Assembly: GCF_018437505.1 (NCBI RefSeq)
Contig: NZ_CP072467.1
Location: forward strand, 5,418,010 to 5,482,009
DNA from: Spiractinospora alimapuensis
GTDB lineage: Bacteria > Actinomycetota > Actinomycetes > Streptosporangiales > Streptosporangiaceae
DNA: 64,000 nucleotides
Direction: 5' to 3'
In this document: positions 6,601 to 49,893 of the stretch, in pieces
How the letters are laid out: each line of letters starts with the position of its first letter
Numbering within the stretch: position 1 is the stretch's first letter
Notes under the pieces: model-generated
What the model was told of the DNA's origin: nothing
The model's database searches: none
What the model saw: the letters and a program-made list of their open reading frames with translations, nothing else
Program-made: the position numbers and the translations under genes

Positions 6601-7410
6601 ATGAGCCTGCCTCCGCGGGGCGGCTCCACGGAGCCGGCCCCGTCCCCAGTCGGGAGCCCCGGGCCACCTCCCGGCCAGGGGCTTCCGCCACGGCCGCGAC
6701 GCGAGGCGGATCCGTCCGGGGGAGGCCGCGGCCGGGAACGGCGGAAGCGCCGTTCCACGCGGGCCCCTCGACGGCGTGGGCTCGCGGCGGTCGCCGCCGT
6801 GGGGCTGTCCATCCTGCTCGCCGCGGTGGTCGCCGTCGTCGCCGTCATCATCCTCACTGACGACGGCGGCGGGGTCGCCGACGACGCCGCGCCGCCGACC
6901 GGCGAACCCGTGGGCGAACACGGCGCGCTTCCCGAGTGCGACACCGCCGAGGGATCAGTGTTGTCCGGTCTGGTGCCCAACGCGGAGCACACCGTCGACG
7001 AGGCGGACAACGAGGACGGCTGGGAGCTAAGGGACTGCCAGTGGAGCAGTGCCTCGCTGCGCTACGGACAGACCGCCGGATTCGCCGCGGTGGTGTTCAT
7101 CCGCAACAGAGACGACCCGGTCGTCGGTGTCTCCGGCGGCGACGTCGCACTGGAGGACCTGGAGGCCGACATCGCCGACCACTCCGGCACCGCTGTCGAG
7201 GGCATCGGCGACGCGGCGGCCACCTGGTACAACGTCAGCGACGAGGTGGGCTGCGTCGGTGCGGTGACCGCGAACATGTACACCGTCACCTGCCACGACG
7301 CCCAGGACGATGACGGGCGGTGGGGTGGTCTGGGCCAGGAGGACGCCATCGCCGGCGCGCGGGAGCTCGCCGAACACGTGGTCGCCCACGTCGCCGTCGG
7401 TGACTACTAG
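6601..7410 (+). CDS. Membrane-anchored secreted protein, paralogue 3
   Basis: A 269-residue relative of the preceding protein. The cytoplasmic part (residues 1-60) is Pro/Arg-rich rather than Tyr-rich. One membrane helix (about 60-82, LAAVAAVGLSILLAAVVAVV) is followed by an extracytoplasmic domain with Cys in LPECDTA, LRDCQWSSA, EVGCVGAVT and TVTCHD at matching places. VEGIGDAAATWYN aligns with DGIGDEAHSFYE of the upstream copy, and both end in a helix starting AI(D/A)GA. The ATG follows GAGCGAGAC, a weak ribosome site. The gap of about 180 bases after the previous gene suggests a separate or weakly linked transcript. Function unknown; the four conserved Cys argue for a disulfide-stabilised sensor or binding fold. 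Confidence 0.8.
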   Translation: MSLPPRGGSTEPAPSPVGSPGPPPGQGLPPRPRREADPSGGGRGRERRKRRSTRAPRRRGLAAVAAVGLSILLAAVVAVVAVIILTDDGGGVADDAAPPTGEPVGEHGALPECDTAEGSVLSGLVPNAEHTVDEADNEDGWELRDCQWSSASLRYGQTAGFAAVVFIRNRDDPVVGVSGGDVALEDLEADIADHSGTAVEGIGDAAATWYNVSDEVGCVGAVTANMYTVTCHDAQDDDGRWGGLGQEDAIAGARELAEHVVAHVAVGDY

Positions 7411-7450
7411 GTCGTGTTCCTTGGGCGGGCCGCGGAGCGGGTTGGCCACT

Positions 7451-7511
7451 CCCATCAGGACTTCTCCACCCCCACCGGGATCACGCCACATCCAACCGGT
7501 GGGGGCGCACC
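7451..7511 (+). repeat. 61-bp dispersed repeat, copy 1
   Basis: One of four gapless copies in this window. All share CTCCACCCCCACC followed about 18-20 bases later by GGTGGG. In this copy CCCACCGG (7471-7478) and CCGGTGGG (7496-7503) form a perfect 8-bp inverted repeat, so the RNA or single strand can fold into a hairpin. It lies between the third secreted paralogue and the lexA terminator. Confidence 0.75.
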
Positions 7512-7579
7512 TCGACCCGCTCTGCCGCGGTCGACAGCACCCACCACCGATGCACGGGAACCGAAGCGGCGAGGCCGCG

Positions 7580-7628: not shown

Positions 7629-8399
7629 CTAGACCTTGCGCATCACGGTGACGACCTTGCCGAGGATGGTCGCGGCGTCGCCGTTGATCGGCTCGTAGGC
7701 GTCGTTGCGGGGCAGCAGCCACGCGTGGTCGCCGTCGTGCTTGAACACCTTGACGGTGGCCTCGTCATCCAGCAGCGCGGCGACGATGTCGCCGTTGCTG
7801 GCCTCCGGCTGTTGGCGCACCACCACGAGGTCGCCCTCGGTGATCGCCGCGTCGCGCATCGAGTCGCCGACGACGCGCAGCATGAACAGGCGCCCCTCAC
7901 CCACCAGTTGCTTGGGTAGCGTGAGCACGTCCTCGATGTGTTCCTCCGCCAGGATCGGACCACCGGCGGCGATGCGTCCCACGACGGGGACGTCGGTCAC
8001 GGGGCCGGGGTCGTCGGGCGCGGAGGACGCGTCGGAGCGGACCGGCGGCTGGCCGGGAATCTGGATCTCCATGGCCCGCGGACGGTTCTGGTCGCGATGC
8101 AGGTAGCCCTTGCGCTGGAGCACGTTGAGCTGGTGGGCGACGCTGGAGGGGCTGGAGAGGCCGACCGCGTCGCCGATCTCGCGAATGGACGGCGGGAAAC
8201 CGCGCTGACGGACGTAGCGCAACATGAAGTTCAGGACGTTCTGTTGTCGCGCCGTCAGTTTCGGCGGCGCCTCGGCGTCTCCCGGGGACGTGGTGTCGCC
8301 GTTGGCGTCCGGCGCGCTCGCCGTGGTCGGGCGCAGCGTCGCTGTCGCCGTGCCACGCCCGTTCGAGCGTCGTGCCTTTGGCGACGGGGTCTTCTGCAC
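7629..8399 (-). CDS. lexA: LexA SOS repressor / autoprotease
   Basis: The SOS-response repressor, cleaved when RecA filaments form. After a disordered N-terminal extension of about 47 residues comes a winged helix-turn-helix (residues 48-112, [24 protein letters not shown]). The S24-type peptidase domain follows. The cleavage site is the Ala145-Gly146 bond in GRIAAGGPI; the catalytic pair is Ser180 (VVGDSM) and Lys217 (ATVKVF). All residues needed for self-cleavage are present. GTG is the start, with AGGAGG seven bases upstream. The intergenic region with nrdR holds two SOS boxes, so the gene is almost certainly autoregulated. A very strong hairpin follows the stop. Confidence 0.97.
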
Positions 8400-38511: not shown

Positions 38512-39630
38512 TCACCCGGCGGTGGGTGGGTTCCAGTTGGCCGAGGTGAGGAACTCCTCGATGGCATTGGTGTAGGGGTCCAGGTCCCAGCCACGTTCGG
38601 AGACCCACTCGTCGGAGTAGTAGCTGTGCCGGTAGCGGTCGCCGCCGTCGCAGATCAGGGTCACCACGCTGCCGCTGCGCCCCTCGTGCAGCATCCGGGC
38701 GACGAGGTGCCACACGCCCCACAGGTTGGTGCCGGTGGAGCCGCCGGCACACAGGCCGGTGACCCGCTGGAGGTGGCGCATGGCCGCGACGCTGGCCGCG
38801 TCCGGGACGGGAATCATCAGGTCGATGACCGAGGGCACGAAACTGGGTTCGACGCGGGGGCGGCCGATGCCTTCGATCCGTGAGGGCATTCCGGTGGCGT
38901 AGTCGCTGGCGCCTGTCGCCCAGCCCGGGAAGTAGGCGGAGTTCTCCGGATCCACCACCGCCACTTTGGTGGGGTGACGCCGGTAGCGGACGTAGCGGCC
39001 GATCGTCGCCGAGGTGCCGCCGGTGCCCGCGCCCATCACGACCCAGTCGGGCACCGGGAAGCGTTCCAGGGACAACTGGTCGAAGATGGATTCGGCGATG
39101 TTGTTGTTGCCGCGCCAGTCCGTGGCACGTTCGGCGAACGTGAACTGGTCCATGTAGTGGTGGTCCGCCTTCGCGGCGAGCCGCTCGGCCTCGGTGTACA
39201 TGTCGGGAGGCGCGTCCACGAAGTGGCAGCGTCCGCCGTACCGCTCGATGAGCGCGATCTTCTCCGGGCTGGTCCTGCGCGGTACGACCGTCACGAAGTC
39301 CAGCCCCAACAGGTGCGCGAAGTACGCCTCGGAGACCGCTGTCGACCCGGAGCTCGCCTCCACGATCGTGGTGCCCTCGGTGATCCACCCGTTGGCCAGT
39401 CCGTACAGGAACAGCGACCGCGCGAGTCGGTGCTTGAGGCTTCCCGTGGGATGGACCGACTCGTCCTTGAGGTAGAGGTCGATGTTCCAGTGCGACGGAA
39501 GCGGGAACACGTGCAGATGTGTGTCAGCCGACCGATTCGCGTCGGCCTCCACCCGCCGCACCGCCTCGTCCACCCAGGCACGCTGCCGCGAGGAACCGTG
39601 TTCAACCCAGTCTTCCGATGGCATAGGCAT
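38512..39630 (-). CDS. PLP-dependent cysteine synthase-family enzyme, Cds1 (L-cysteine desulfhydrase)-like
   Basis: A 372-residue fold-type II pyridoxal-phosphate enzyme. The Lys that forms the Schiff base is in [11 protein letters not shown], followed by the SSGSTAVS loop (substrate carboxylate) and the phosphate-binding [14 protein letters not shown] segment. Compared with CysK it has extra N-terminal residues ([15 protein letters not shown]...HVFPLP) and a CAGGSTGTN motif, both typical of the Rv3684/Cds1 group, which releases H2S, pyruvate and ammonia from cysteine. ATG at 39630 is chosen because TACCCT lies just upstream on this strand. It stands alone. Cds1 activity rather than cysteine synthesis is inferred from family resemblance. 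Confidence 0.85.
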
Positions 39631-39694
39631 GCCAGCAGGGTAACCGGAGCCCCTCGCGGATGTGGGCGGCGCGAACTCCGCCATGACAGGCAAA

Positions 39695-39755
39695 TATGCA
39701 CACCCACCCGTTCGGTGCGGGCGAAACCTGGTGGGGGTGGAGAAATCCTGATCGG
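39695..39755 (-). repeat. 61-bp dispersed repeat, copy 2
   Basis: Read on the minus strand it begins CCGATCAGGATTTCTCCACC and aligns without gaps to the copies at 7451, 41460 and 48900. It lies in the interval between the Cds1-like gene and the small gene at 39947, which otherwise has no gene. The CCCACC / GGTGGG arms are kept. Confidence 0.75.
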
Positions 39756-39848
39756 GGAGCTGGGAACGCTGGTCGGCGGTCACCGGCGCTCCCAGGAATC
39801 ACGCTCTCGGTCCAGATCGGCGGCCTCAGCGATGCCAGGAGCGGATCC

Positions 39849-40315: not shown

Positions 40316-40382
40316 GTGTTAGAGTGTCACCCAACAAATGCCGGTGCAAGCGCCAATTGGAAATCTGTGGATTGGAATCTTC

Positions 40383-41243
40383 ATGGCGAAGCGGGAGCGT
40401 CGGGTAACCCTGCGGGCTCAGTGGCTCGGACAGCTTCTACGCAAGCTCCGTGAGGACAACAGCATCACGCTCAAGGAGGCGGGAGAATACCTGCAGAAGG
40501 ACTTCTCGTCAGTGAGTCGGTTCGAGCTGGGCACCTTCCCCGTCCGACGAGGTGACCTCACCGCGCTGATGGATCTGTACGGCATTGATGACCGAGCGCA
40601 ACGGGACATGCTGATCCAGATGTGCAGCGAGGTGTGGCAGACCGGCTGGTGGGAGTCCTACTCCAAGGACGATGTGTGGGGCAGCACCATCGATTTGGTG
40701 TGGCTTGAAGGACGGGCAAAGAAGCTACAGATGTTCGCTGCGCTTACGCTGCCCGGAATGCTGCAAACCGAGGACTATGCGCGTGCGTTGATCACGGCTG
40801 TGGATGATCAGGCGACGACGCAGCAAATTAACCGCTGGGTTGAACTGCGAATGGGACGACAGCAGATTCTCGGCAGGGACGACGGCCCGGCAGTCTCGGT
40901 TGTCCTCGATGAGGCGGCGATCCGCCGTCCAGTAGGAGGATCGCAGGTCATGAGTCAGCAGCTTCAGAGCCTCTTGTCCCAGATACGGTCTGGATGCATC
41001 GAGGTGCGCGTCCTGCCGTTTGCGGTCGGCCCTCATGCCAGCCCCGAGGGCGGGTTCACCCTGCTTACGCTGAATGAACCCTTCGATAGCGTGGCGCATA
41101 TCGAATCCAGAGGCGGAGGGATCTACCTCGAACGCGGCGATGTTGATCATCTTTTGCGCGTATACGATCGACTCAAAGAGAGCGCGCTCGGCCCGCAGGA
41201 TTCAGCCGCGTTCATTTCCGGAGCGGAGAAGGACATCCGATGA
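40383..41243 (+). CDS. XRE-family regulator, Scr1-type (paired with DUF397)
   Basis: A 286-residue protein. An N-terminal XRE helix-turn-helix (residues about 10-65: LGQLLRKLREDNSITLKEAGEYL, then SSVSRFELG) is followed by the large C-terminal domain typical of actinobacterial Scr1/WhiJ-like regulators (WWESYSKDDVW, ALTLPGMLQTEDYARALI, IEVRVLPFAVGPHASPEGGFTLL). Such proteins act with a DUF397 partner encoded directly downstream, here overlapping by four bases (ATGA), and affect development or antibiotic production; some authors treat the pair as toxin-antitoxin-like. Start uncertain: ATG at 40338 is also in frame and would be near-leaderless after TAGAGT; 40383 gives the more usual N-terminus. 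Confidence 0.9.
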   Translation: MAKRERRVTLRAQWLGQLLRKLREDNSITLKEAGEYLQKDFSSVSRFELGTFPVRRGDLTALMDLYGIDDRAQRDMLIQMCSEVWQTGWWESYSKDDVWGSTIDLVWLEGRAKKLQMFAALTLPGMLQTEDYARALITAVDDQATTQQINRWVELRMGRQQILGRDDGPAVSVVLDEAAIRRPVGGSQVMSQQLQSLLSQIRSGCIEVRVLPFAVGPHASPEGGFTLLTLNEPFDSVAHIESRGGGIYLERGDVDHLLRVYDRLKESALGPQDSAAFISGAEKDIR

Positions 41244-41455: not shown

Positions 41456-41459
41456 CACC

Positions 41460-41520
41460 CCCATCAAGGTTCCTCCACCCCCACCGGGATTAGCTCACCC
41501 CGAACAGGTGGGTGCCCATT
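41460..41520 (+). repeat. 61-bp dispersed repeat, copy 3
   Basis: Starts CCCATCAAGGTTCCTCCACC and ends GGTGGGTGCCCATT, aligning gaplessly to the other three. CCCACC and GGTGGG arms can pair. It starts four bases after the DUF397 stop. Confidence 0.75.
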
Positions 41521-41541
41521 CACCTGCTACAGCGGGGTGCA

Positions 41542-41575
41542 CGTCACCCAGGCGCCTGGTCGGGCCTGGGTGACG
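41542..41575 (-). terminator. Terminator of the ECF41 operon
   Basis: CGTCACCCAGGC (41542-41553) pairs perfectly over 12 bp with GCCTGGGTGACG (41564-41575). It lies 28 bases past the minus-strand stop of the decarboxylase-family gene. Confidence 0.7.
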
Positions 41576-41603: not shown

Positions 41604-42047
41604 TCAGGCATCGCCGCCGGCGGTCTTGTGCAGGGGGACCGCGATCCGGTTCAGCAGGTTGATCTGGGCGATCGTGAGAACCAGCGCGCTGAGGGACTCC
41701 TCGTCGAAGTGGCGGGCCGCTTCGTTCCACACGTCGTCCGGGACGGGGTCGGGGGTGTCCGCCATGCGGGTCACCGCCTCGGTGAGGGTGAGTGCGGCGC
41801 GTTCCGCGTCGGTGAAGTACTCGGTTTCCCGCCAGGCGGCGACGGTGAAGAGACGTTCGTCGGTTTCGCCGGCCTTCTTGGCGTCCCGGCTGTGCATGTC
41901 GACACAGTAGCCACAGCCGTTGATCTGGCTCGCGCGGATCTTCACCAACTCCAGGACGGTATGGGGTAGCGCGCTCTCATCCAGGTACTTCTCAGTGGCG
42001 AAGATGCCCTTGTAGGCCGCCGCCGACATGGTGAGACGTGGACTCAC
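41604..42047 (-). CDS. Carboxymuconolactone decarboxylase / AhpD-like protein (ECF41 partner)
   Basis: A 147-residue all-helical protein of the carboxymuconolactone decarboxylase fold. The motif NGCGYCVDMHSRDAKK carries the redox CxxC and the following His seen in AhpD-like peroxidase partners; WRETEYFTDAERAALTLTEAVT and the C-terminal NLLNRIAVPL helix complete the domain. GTG start, overlapping the stop of the sigma gene by four bases (GTGA), so translation is coupled. Genes of this type are the standard neighbour of ECF41 sigma factors, and the pair is thought to act in an oxidative or aromatic-compound response whose signal is unknown. A terminator follows. Confidence 0.9.
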   Translation of the reverse strand: MSPRLTMSAAAYKGIFATEKYLDESALPHTVLELVKIRASQINGCGYCVDMHSRDAKKAGETDERLFTVAAWRETEYFTDAERAALTLTEAVTRMADTPDPVPDDVWNEAARHFDEESLSALVLTIAQINLLNRIAVPLHKTAGGDA

Positions 42048-46536: not shown

Positions 46537-48675
46537 ATGGACGCGACCGTGGACTGTGGACAGACCGACGAACAGGTTCGGGCCGAGGCGGAGGAGTGGC
46601 TGCGTGCTCTGGCCGGTCCGGACGCGTCGCTGAGGGAGGACCAGTGGACCGCGATCAGGGCGCTGGTCGTCGACCGCAGGCGGGCCCTCGTCGTCCAACG
46701 GACGGGGTGGGGCAAGTCCGCGGTCTACTTCGTGGCGACCGCGCTGCTGCGTCGTGCCGGGGCCGGCCCCAGCGTGATCGTCTCCCCGCTGTTGGCGCTG
46801 ATGCGGGACCAGATCGCCGCCGCCGAACGGGCCGGACTGACGGCGCGGACCGTCAACAGCGCCAACACGGCGGACTGGGACGCGGTCTACGCGGAGATCG
46901 CCGCCGGCGCCGTCGACGTCGTGCTCGTGAGCCCGGAACGGTTGAACAACCCCGAGTTCCGGGAGCGGGTGCTGCCGGACCTCTCCGTCGCCTGCGGTCT
47001 GGTCGTCGTGGACGAGGCGCACTGCGTGTCGGACTGGGGACACGACTTCCGGCCCGACTACATGCGCATCCGCACCCTGCTCGCCGACCTCCCGGCCCGG
47101 ACCCCGGTCCTGGCGACGACGGCCACCGCCAACGCCCGGGTGACCGCCGACGTCGCCGCGCAGGTCGGCGTGGGGGAGTCGCGGGACACCGTCGTGCTGC
47201 GCGGGCCGCTGGACCGCACCAGCCTGCGGCTCGCCGTGGTCGACCTGCCCGACGCCACGCGTCGCCTCGGCTGGTTGGCCACACACCTCCGTGACCTCCC
47301 GGGATCGGGCATCATCTACACCCTGACCGTCGCCGCGGCGGAGGAGACGACCGACTTCCTCGTCGGCCAGGGCTACGACGTGCGCGCCTACACGGGCCAG
47401 ACCGACCCCGAGGAGCGGCGGCGGGCCGAGGACGACCTACGCGAGAACGCGGTCAAGGCCCTGGTGGCGACGAGCGCGCTCGGCATGGGCTTCGACAAGC
47501 CCGACCTCGGTTTCGTGCTCCACTTGGGTGCTCCCCAGTCCCCGATCGCCTACTACCAGCAGGTGGGGCGTGCCGGGCGCGGGGTTCGCCGCGCCGAGGT
47601 CGTGCTGCTGCCGGGACGCGAGGACCGGGCCATCTGGGCCCACTTCACCGAGCGCGCCTTCCCGCCGGCCGAGACCGTCGCGACGACACTCGACGTGCTT
47701 CGCGCCGCGGCCGAGCCGGTCTCCCTGCCGCGCCTGGAGCCACGGGTGAACCTCGGCCGCTCCCGCCTGGAGCAGATGCTGCGGATCCTCGACGTGGAAG
47801 GGGCGGTGCGCCGGGTCCGTGGCGGCTGGGTCGCGACCGACGCCCCGTGGGAGTACGACGCCGAGCGCTACGCGGGCGTGACCGCCGCTCGACGGGCCGA
47901 GCAGGACGCCATGGTGCGCTACCTGGCGCACTCCGGGTGCCGGATGGAGTTCCTCCGCCGCGAACTCGACGACGCCGAGGCGGGCCCCTGTGGCCGCTGC
48001 GACAACTGCACCGGCGCGCACTGGCGTGCCGACACCGACTCCACGGCGATGGAGGCGGCGGCGCGTCACCTGAGCCGGGCCGGTGTCGTGGTGCCGCCCC
48101 GACGCCAGTGGCCCACCGGGATGGCCCAGCTCGGGGTCTCACTCTCCGGGCGGATCGCCGCCGAGCACTCCGCCGCGGAAGGACGGGCGGTGGCCCGGTT
48201 CACCGACCTCGGCTGGGGGACGCGGCTGCGCGCCCTGCTCGGAGAAACGGCGAGCGACACCTCGGTCGACGCCGAAGTGTTCGCCGCAGTGGTGAGCGTC
48301 CTCGCGGACTGGGGATGGCGCACCCGCCCCGTCGGCGTCGTCGCGGTTCCCTCGCACGCCCGTCCGCGCCTGGTCAGTGACCTGGCGCGGCGGATCGCCA
48401 CCGTCGGCCGGCTGCCCTACCTCGGCAGTCTCGCCTACCAGGACACCCACCGCCCCGGAGCCCGCCGCCACAACAGCGCCCAACGGTTGGCGTCGGTGTG
48501 TCAGTCCCTGCGCTTGGGCGACGAGATCCCCGACGCCCTGCGCGACACCTCCAGCGGCCCGCTGCTCCTCGTCGACGACTACACCGAGTCCGGCTGGACC
48601 CTCACCACCGCGACCGCCCTCCTGCGCGGGGCCGGCGCCCCCGAGGTGCTCCCACTCGTGCTGGCCACGAGCTAG
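46537..48675 (+). CDS. recQ: RecQ-family DNA helicase fused to a phosphoribosyltransferase-like domain
   Basis: A 712-residue superfamily 2 helicase. [12 protein letters not shown] is the Q/zero motif, [12 protein letters not shown] motif I (Walker A), [17 protein letters not shown] motif II with the RecQ aromatic loop, and ATTATAN motif [14 protein letters not shown] is motif VI. A zinc module ([24 protein letters not shown]) follows. The last 200 residues are not HRDC but resemble a type I phosphoribosyltransferase: [14 protein letters not shown] and [26 protein letters not shown], where [10 protein letters not shown] matches a PRPP loop. This fusion is known in actinobacteria, but its purpose is not established. 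It is divergent from parC with a 129-base gap. Confidence 0.9.
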
Positions 48676-48730: not shown

Positions 48731-48898
48731 GTGGTTCGACGGCACGAGGTCACCGACCACGCCTGGGAACATGTCCGACGGCTGTTTCCCCTCAACCAGG
48801 GCCGAGGCGGGCGCGGGCGTGATCATCACAGAATGCTCAACTGCATGATCTACAAACTCGAGGGCGCTGTGTGCGATTCACTCCGCCAGAGCAGGTGA
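48731..48898 (+). pseudogene. IS5-type transposase N-terminal remnant
   Basis: A 55-codon frame, VRRHEVTDHAWEHVRRLFP, then NQGRGGRGRDHHRMLNCMIYKLEGAVCDSL, matches the start of IS5-family transposases (usually RHELTDAAWE...GRGGRWRDHRTVLNGILWRL...). The catalytic DDE part is missing. The frame ends at a stop one base before the outer edge of repeat copy 4, so the deletion junction and the repeat border coincide. No terminal inverted repeats were found. Not functional. Confidence 0.65.
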
Positions 48899-48899
48899 A

Positions 48900-48960
48900 T
48901 GCGCACACCCACCGGATGGATGTGTGTCAATCCTGGTGGGGGTGGAGAAACTTCGACGGG
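48900..48960 (-). repeat. 61-bp dispersed repeat, copy 4
   Basis: On the minus strand it begins CCCGTCGAAGTTTCTCCACC and ends GGTGGGTGTGCGCA, gapless with copies 1-3. It directly abuts the transposase remnant and precedes the end of the PfkB gene. Together these fill the 320-base gap after recQ. Confidence 0.75.
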
Positions 48961-48996
48961 GAAGCTGGTGGTGGCGGGCGGCAGGGTGGACCGTCG

Positions 48997-49893
48997 CTAG
49001 GTGAGTTCGGGGCGGGCGCCGGGTTGGATCAAGGCGCGGGCGGCGAGGCGGTGCGCGTTGGTGAGCGCCTCTTTGGGGTGGTAGTTGGCGAGGAAGGGCG
49101 GGAGGAATCCCGCGACGAAGGCGTCGCCGGCGCCGATGGAGCCGGGGGTGGTCTCCACGGGGGGCGCCTCGACCGTGATGGTCTCGTCGCGGCCCTTGGC
49201 GGTCCACAGGGCGCTCTCGTCGCTGGTCTTGATGACCACGTTGGGGTACCAGGCGGTGAGGACCTTGGCCGCGGCCTCGTCGTCGTCCCGGCCGGTGAGT
49301 ACTTCGGCCTGCCGGCTGTTGGCGAACAGCAGGCGCGCGCCCGTCGTCCACTCCAGGAACGACTCCGCGCCGATCCGTTCCAACTGGGCGTGCGAGGCGG
49401 CGTCCACCGACACCGACATCCCCATCTCGCGCGCGTGGGAGAGGGCGACCCGGCCCGCCTTGCGTGACCCCTCGTTGAGCAGGGTGTGGCCGGACAGATG
49501 CAGGTGCCGGTCCGGGGTGAAGAGGTCGCGCGGGAGGTCCTCGGGCTGCAACGCGGCGTTGGCGGCCGGATCACTGAGGGTGGTGCGGTCGCCCTTGTGC
49601 GTGACCATGACGACGCACGTGCCGGTCGGACGCTCCGGGTCCATGACCATGCGAGCGTCGACGCCGTACCCCATGAGCTCCATCTCGCGGGTGCGCCCAG
49701 TGATGTCCGAGCCCCGTCGCCCGATGAGGGCGATGTCCCCGCCTTCGACCGCGAGCCAGGACGCGATGTTCGCGCCCGATCCTCCGCCGTAGGTCGTGAC
49801 GGAGGACGGAGTGTTGCCTTCCCGGGCCAGGGGGTAGTGGGCTCGGGCGACGGTGTCGGTCATGAGTTCCCCGATCACCACCACGCGTGTCAT
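48997..49893 (-). CDS. PfkB-family carbohydrate kinase
   Basis: A 298-residue ribokinase-type enzyme that phosphorylates a sugar or nucleoside with ATP. The N-terminal motif (TTYGGGSGANIASWLAVEGG) is the first PfkB signature; the C-terminal GSIGAGDAFVAGF carries the catalytic Asp and anion hole. HLHLSGHTLL and VDAASHAQLERIG are internal fold elements. The ATG at 49893 follows AAGGCGGTGCAGG. Substrate not determinable; sequence is closer to ribokinase/sugar kinases than to 1-phosphofructokinase. It is alone on this strand, separated from the kinase-phosphatase cluster by a divergent 463-base intergenic region. Confidence 0.85.
   Translation of the reverse strand: MTRVVVIGELMTDTVARAHYPLAREGNTPSSVTTYGGGSGANIASWLAVEGGDIALIGRRGSDITGRTREMELMGYGVDARMVMDPERPTGTCVVMVTHKGDRTTLSDPAANAALQPEDLPRDLFTPDRHLHLSGHTLLNEGSRKAGRVALSHAREMGMSVSVDAASHAQLERIGAESFLEWTTGARLLFANSRQAEVLTGRDDDEAAAKVLTAWYPNVVIKTSDESALWTAKGRDETITVEAPPVETTPGSIGAGDAFVAGFLPPFLANYHPKEALTNAHRLAARALIQPGARPELT

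Follow-up and report, generated by a model that had tools for sequence, protein, structure and literature searches.

Investigation of a 64,000-nucleotide stretch of the genome of Spiractinospora alimapuensis (the window) and of the genome itself, a single contig of 5,864,354 bases, revealed a dispersed repeat of about 95 bp that appears specific to this lineage and recurs in 75 places, most of them behind unrelated genes and in the sense orientation. The repeat could well be a transcript 3'-end element acting in the RNA of the preceding gene, a reading put forward tentatively here; in that case it would probably be a strand-specific Rho-type terminator or Rho-loading site, as its rut-like composition suggests.

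Copies of the Repeat in the Window

The first-pass annotation of the window had described a 61-bp element in four gapless copies, and these were confirmed at 7451-7511 (+), 39695-39755 (-), 41460-41520 (+) and 48900-48960 (-), where they align without gaps over 61 positions with 43-47 identities of 61 per pair. Matrices made from three copies gave the omitted fourth copy 51.7-58.6 bits and the next-best place in the 64-kb window at most 10.9 bits. The length of 61 bp proved too short, homology extending in the 3' direction to about 95 bp in a model built from 24 copies, which all four window copies match over nearly its full length with 72-82 bits. The motifs CTCCACCCCCACC and GGTGGG, previously called invariant, are so in the four window copies; genome-wide they are strongly conserved, not invariant. 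The copies and the parts of the first of them are as follows.

7450-7544, + strand: copy 1 (82.2 bits with model R1), which begins 39 nt past the stop codon of a 203-aa gene (6799-7410, +) and faces a lexA-like gene (7629-8399, -)
7451-7497, + strand: 5' part of copy 1, rich in C and poor in G, in which a CCCCCAYCAGGATT-like motif occurs twice at a spacing of about 20 nt; the sense RNA of this part is rut-like
7498-7544, + strand: 3' part of copy 1, with a GGTGGGGG block followed by CGACCCGC...GCGGTCGAC and CACCCA
39663-39757, - strand: copy 2 (74.4 bits), with a PLP-dependent enzyme gene (38512-39624, -) starting 38 nt downstream of it
41458-41551, + strand: copy 3 (72.3 bits), flanked by an HTH/DUF5753 regulator gene (40338-41243, +) and, in convergent orientation, a CMD-family gene (41604-42047, -)
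48867-48961, - strand: copy 4 (78.7 bits), which follows a pfkB-family kinase gene (48997-49884, -) at 35 nt from its stop; the other neighbour is a convergent recQ-like gene (46537-48675, +)

The observation that copies often directly follow a stop thus describes copies 1 and 4, and copy 2, with no close stop, is an exception to it. Copy 3 lies about 214 nt behind the stop of the open reading frame at 40338-41243 and 52 nt from the convergent stop.

Copy Number and Genome-Wide Occurrence

A pattern allowing up to three mismatches matched 26 places in the genome and its reversed form none, and chance or composition was therefore rejected as the source of the repeat. The sequence-only model R1 found 75 places at E < 1e-4, all of which were aligned, and the doubt raised at first pass, that the four window copies might be the only ones in the genome, falls away. 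A second model (R2), rebuilt from all 75, returned 76 copies, and since it added just one weak place (25.6 bits) and two other-strand self-matches of the central dyad, the family looks closed. Two of 26 copies had been left out of the alignment A3, L001 being truncated and L004 divergent at its end.

The copies are scattered over the chromosome, with none of the 75 in the first 585 kb. The dnaA gene lies at 3.56 of 5.86 Mb, well inside the contig, and this position together with the copy-free first 585 kb raises the possibility of a linear chromosome with a core and arms.

Some individual loci have features of their own. L139 and L140 (genome positions 5626664 and 5856293) lie in near-identical segments of at least about 3.4 kb, which represent one duplicated segment, each with an rve/IS481-type transposase gene and one repeat copy, and one of them lies about 8 kb from the contig end. 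The window segment 48666-48840, from recQ to copy 4, is 85% identical to intergenic stretches in these two loci (near 5.63 and 5.86 Mb); it is possibly mobile-element debris and may account for the longer recQ-pfkB gap here compared with Nocardiopsis. With the element turned sense, L115 (2877-3118) and L143 (2859-3127) are alike over about 120 bp on its 5' side and identical over 31 bp on its 3' side, and the element here lies within a larger repeated unit of 230 bp. Window copy 1 (7450-7544), L099, L104 and L132 form a close subset with about 28-42 bp more 5' similarity than most pairs. At L001/L145 (genome position 967884), the segment between GGTGGGGGT and CGACAACACCCACC (second hairpin) is missing, as if cleanly deleted.

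Position and Strand Relative to Genes

Genes were called with a custom codon-usage caller for this genome, by which at least one gene was missed, namely the regulator gene beside copy 3 (40338-41243, +, HTH_31 and DUF5753), perhaps owing to atypical codon use. Of the 75 copies, 60 overlap no gene and are preceded on their 5' side by a sense gene; 50 of these begin 1-49 nt behind its stop. Regarding the type of gap, 37 copies are in convergent gaps, 23 are co-oriented in tandem gaps, 7 are anti-oriented, 6 are in divergent gaps, and 2 overlap a called gene. Stops of called genes within 60 nt are found in sense for 50 copies and in antisense for 32 (24 both, 26 sense only, 8 antisense only, 17 neither), sense-only cases outnumbering antisense-only ones (26 v 8, p 0.003). 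A recount based on open reading frames within 60 nt gave 52 sense and 33 antisense (26 both, 26 sense only, 7 antisense only, 16 neither; p 0.0013), the two extra sense copies (window copy 3 and, by elimination, L126) resting on uncalled frames and the antisense window being slightly wider.

Uniform insertion into element-free gaps, calculated from 327 element-free gene pairs near element loci (260 with gaps above 5 nt), predicts 11.4% of copies behind a sense stop, 79% with neither stop and 13% in convergent gaps, whereas 50/75 (p 2.3e-29), 17/75 and 37/75 (p 7.7e-14), respectively, were observed. In 12 convergent gaps where the two spacings differ by at least 45 nt, the element is nearer to the sense stop in 10 and to the other stop in 2. 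In the L124 gap two copies face each other, each starting 1 nt past the stop of its own gene, and at L108 two copies enclose a small gene, each at 7-14 nt from the sense stop in front of it. A called sense stop within 60 nt is lacking in 25/75 copies, 8 of which are behind an antisense stop only. In the recount by open reading frames, copies lacking a close sense stop number 12 among the 37 with better scores and 11 among the remaining 38, so that anchoring is no weaker in more divergent copies. Most gene ends in the regions around element loci are element-free, and the element is therefore not needed for termination in general.

The proteins encoded upstream were scanned against Pfam, the 50 scanned comprising 48 from the 50 copies within 49 nt, of which L160 and L161 were omitted, together with those of L099 and L104. 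Families were assigned to 46 and none to 4, and include a UvrD-type helicase, protein kinases, an aminotransferase, a phosphoglucomutase, an amino-acid kinase with a PUA domain (proB-like), NucS, SAICAR synthetase, glutamine synthetase, D-Tyr-tRNA deacylase, regulators, transporters and others. A few large families recur two or three times, no pathway stands out, and a regulon was rejected for want of a recurring theme among these 50 proteins; the lack of a functional theme is easier to reconcile with a 3'-end signal of general use, or with an indifferent repeat, than with a regulon. This bears on whether the repeat is instead a 3'-UTR element bound by an RNA-binding protein or a small RNA, which would set mRNA stability or processing and not termination. 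Strand preference and place behind the stop would suit such an element, as would the conserved motifs CCCCCAYCAGGATT and CACATC found among the copies, but the scanned upstream genes have no common function or pathway, which would be unusual for a regulon, and no Rfam family corresponds to the repeat, so this role seems distinctly unlikely.

Composition and Terminator-Like Features

In the 100 nt behind the stop, element ends are richer in C (0.43 v 0.354) and poorer in G (0.243 v 0.347) than control ends (50 v 170 ends), and the excess begins about 20-30 nt before the element. Criteria for rut sites in RhoTermPredict are a stretch of 78 nt with C/G above 1 and a C every 11-13 nt (PMC6407284); they were applied with a custom script that took the best 78-nt C/G ratio with spaced C. 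The element contains such a C>G stretch with spaced C, as in Rho-dependent terminators, and the median best ratio was 1.87 for the 50 element 3' ends, against 1.21 for the 201 controls. Ratios above 1.5 were found in sense at 37/50 element ends and 49/201 controls, and in antisense at 1/50 and 56/201, respectively, a result that describes the family and not 50 independent events, as the copies are related.

An intrinsic terminator with a strong hairpin was rejected, since no T-rich stretch or U-tract was seen behind the element on average over the copies and its hairpins are not above controls, the best hairpin being slightly weaker at the element than at ordinary 3' ends (-19.3 v -20.4 kcal/mol, p 0.022). 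The elemental-pause motif GGN8YG shows no enrichment on the sense strand, with 0.81 occurrences per copy v 0.85 in shuffled sequence and 2.0 in antisense. The genome has one Rho match over the cut-off, in an open frame of 682 residues. Actinobacterial Rho has been described as having an extra RNA-binding subdomain (PMC4167861), and the Rho of Mycobacterium tuberculosis as defining mRNA 3' ends (PMC5379054).

Thus, of the origins proposed at first pass, a family of terminators or regulatory RNAs gains support from position, strand and sense-strand composition, short of proof. In the mechanism envisaged, the ribosome would leave at the stop and thereby expose the C-rich 5' half, in which a 20-bp unit, CCCCCAYCAGGATTTCNCCA, occurs twice in tandem; the exposed half would load the termination factor Rho, and the G-rich block behind it could pair back or forward, which may slow RNA polymerase or protect the new 3' end. 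A stronger version is rather unlikely: a Rho-terminator cassette with conserved sequence and strand specificity would have multiplied in this lineage and come to lie behind dozens of core genes unrelated to one another, as a copy-and-paste terminator whose rut sites form a repeat family rather than a loose composition. If the Rho reading is true, the approximately 75 homologous copies, which for the most part follow unrelated genes of this one genome, would offer a natural series in which to measure the requirements of a Rho site in a high-GC actinobacterium.

Element Structure and Conservation

The majority consensus of the 74 distinct copies is CCCCCATCAGGATTTCTCCACCCCCATCAGGATTTCCCCACATCCAACCGGTGGGGGTGCACATCCACCCGCTATAGCGGGGTCGACCCCACCCA, the first 40 bases of which are the tandem pair of 20-bp units. 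Matches start at model positions 14-21 in 15 of 75 copies and at position 34 in one, and the first unit is therefore often missing or diverged. The 3' half contains GGTGGGGGTGCRCA, for which the possible partners are CCACCCCCAYC before it, CACATCCA just before it and YCACC after it, and these three pairings of the G-rich block are mutually exclusive. The GGTGGGGG block of copy 1 can likewise pair with CCCCCACC on its 5' side or with a block on its 3' side, with weak covariation, and a second hairpin, with CGGGGTC at its end, is possible.

The three exclusive pairings form in 76.4, 73.6 and 77.1% of cells, compared with 18-50% in slid registers. Their covariation scores were reached by 188, 10 and 19 of 500 shuffles, respectively, a control that related sequences can exceed without structure. 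Scans of mutual information and pair excess over the 74 distinct copies found no dominant helix (best five-pair window 4.2-4.3, with many others near), and RNAalifold on 24 copies gave 7 pairs. Covariation is at or near shuffle level, with no helix dominating the whole-alignment scans, and gives a covarying RNA fold no clear support. Fold z-scores against shuffled sequence averaged -2.0 in sense and -1.55 in antisense over 54 copies and -1.2 over 100 of 188 control ends, a modest difference, and an RNA fold of the element is possible on these sequence data.

Regarding the relatedness of the copies, a tree of the 54 near-complete ones among the 75 is star-like, with 82% of its length in terminal branches, and their median pairwise identity is 0.67. 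Changes per column are over-dispersed (variance/mean 3.96), and 22 of 93 columns have at most three changes, against 3.7 expected from a Poisson distribution. Over-dispersion persists within base classes (ratio 2.3-4.3), so that base-specific mutation alone is insufficient to explain it; CpG columns change more (mean 13.4 vs 8.1). The uneven conservation of columns rules out plain decay of the copies, and certain positions are kept either by the host or by whatever moves the repeat.

The same data address the idea that the repeat is a DNA element, with the near-palindrome GGTGGRTGTGCRCATYCACC bound by a protein and acting as a road block to RNA polymerase or as a chromosome organiser. Consistent with it, the dyad pairs in 77.1% of cells (36-47% in slid registers), the reverse strand of the model matches its own centre, and the dyad pairs are kept by sequence conservation rather than by clear covariation. 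Well-conserved columns are, however, as common in the C-rich half as in the dyad, so that a symmetric site alone cannot account for the element, and such a site would leave the strand preference unexplained; a DNA element of this kind is thus highly improbable.

Distribution in Other Genomes and Origin of the Repeat

The repeat was not found in 340 other genomes of the family, a set without a second genome of the same genus. In the search of 341 family genomes with model R1 (own genome included), 15 others passed E 0.001, the best with 23.9 bits compared with 89 in S. alimapuensis, and among 345 genomes of the order, mostly the same as the family set, only its own genome matched (R2, E 1e-4). 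A set of 60 genomes, again including its own, had strong matches in that genome only, while 50 others passed a loose threshold of E 0.1, with a best value of 2.3e-4 and 15-24 bits among the matches listed. These searches scored the best 12 candidates per genome in the family and order sets and the best 69 in the 60-genome set, at which depth a weak family in a relative could escape. Distant homologues were rejected after 26 loci were re-searched and 10 alignments inspected, matches in relatives having at most 23.9 bits and scattered model positions; L088 and L091 in relatives resemble the element, but are single.

One strict pattern had no match in named GTDB genomes (a set that possibly lacks the S. 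alimapuensis genome), one pattern had none in viral contigs, and plasmids contained no match to the element. In phages, a 26-bp match occurs in 42 Gordonia phage records (E 0.02), within the tape-measure gene in the 20 listed, and was taken as chance. Rfam gave no matches, the window being searched at the gathering threshold and 7 of 68 element loci at E 0.1, which agrees with the first-pass view that no named family has this sequence, and a literature search by title found no description of the repeat.

The nearest named relatives by the RecQ of the window, among 80 loci kept, are Nocardiopsis and Streptomonospora (67-69% identity). Regarding synteny at nucS and proB, the downstream protein was unmatched near the orthologues of the 18 and 17 relatives inspected. 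As the element is absent from the other order genomes sampled, the repeat family appears to have been gained in this lineage.

Such a gain would also fit the main rival to a 3'-end element, a non-autonomous mobile repeat (MITE-like or another unknown short transposing unit) that inserts by gene ends or existing terminators in a preferred orientation and provides no service to the host. Its dispersed, star-like family would fit this origin, as would three Nocardiopsis genomes that have the convergent recQ-pfkB pair of copy 4 and no match to the element, and the 230-bp unit common to L115 and L143; the uneven conservation would then mirror recognition by the mobilising enzyme. As to terminal inverted repeats, however, the best end-to-end complementarity score of the consensus is 6, which 110 of 1000 shuffled consensuses also reach and which is thus not significant, and target-site duplication gave no signal, the mean longest shared k-mer being 4.42 against 4.30 in shuffled sequence (sd 0.12) for the 50 of 75 copies with both ends, whose exact positions are uncertain by some bases. 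Neither of these two features of a MITE was thus seen, and the genome has no transposase match of the Y1 class, the class surveyed genome-wide. A mobile repeat without host function is possible, if on balance unlikely. The earlier suggestion of insertion-sequence relics encounters the same two difficulties, and the shared sequence mostly ends near the 95-bp borders, while the larger units at L115 and L143 leave some room for it. If the repeat is mobile instead, it would be a case of short repeats spread without the known REP transposase and settling at gene ends with a strand preference. The mobile and the 3'-end readings may also hold together, the repeat having spread by some route and been kept where it ends transcripts.

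Comparison With Known Systems

The REP, BIME and REPIN elements of Escherichia coli and Pseudomonas (TnpA-REP/RAYT), often found at a 3' location, resemble the S. alimapuensis element in being short, intergenic and present in many copies. Roles in termination and mRNA stability have been proposed for REP-type elements (PMC3733652). The present element differs in its 95 bp, rather than the 20-40 bp of REP, in being mostly non-palindromic and in its sense-strand preference. Its consensus contains neither GTAG nor CGTC, the outer 15 nt holding GTAG in 0/75 copies and CGTC in 10/75. The RAYT gene that a REP-like origin with a tyrosine-type transposase had called for is missing, a Y1_Tnp (PF01797) search having given no match in this genome and positives in 5 of 14 control genomes, and a REP/RAYT system was rejected on this result and on size and tags.

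The BOX and RUP repeats of pneumococcus are small interspersed repeats of little-known role, and the element is likened to them by description alone. Integron attC-like sites also lie behind stops on a fixed strand; they were set aside here, as the copies are mostly single and dispersed. The triplex motif TM-ECO of E. coli is likewise G/C-rich, intergenic and dispersed, with 23 copies in MG1655 for which its authors found no link to mobile elements (PMC4666352); it differs in its length of 37 nt, its sequence and its arm order, and no strand bias is reported for it.

Like Rho-dependent terminators, the element has more C than G, and regularly spaced C, on the sense strand past the stop codon. 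It differs in being a conserved repeat family in which the pause motif is not enriched and Rho action is putative. Descriptions of Rho sites usually stress their loose sequence and the difficulty of predicting them, and we know of no rut sites that form a sequence-conserved repeat family. Taken together with these systems, the element is a kind of dispersed intergenic repeat for which a terminator-like use is plausible.
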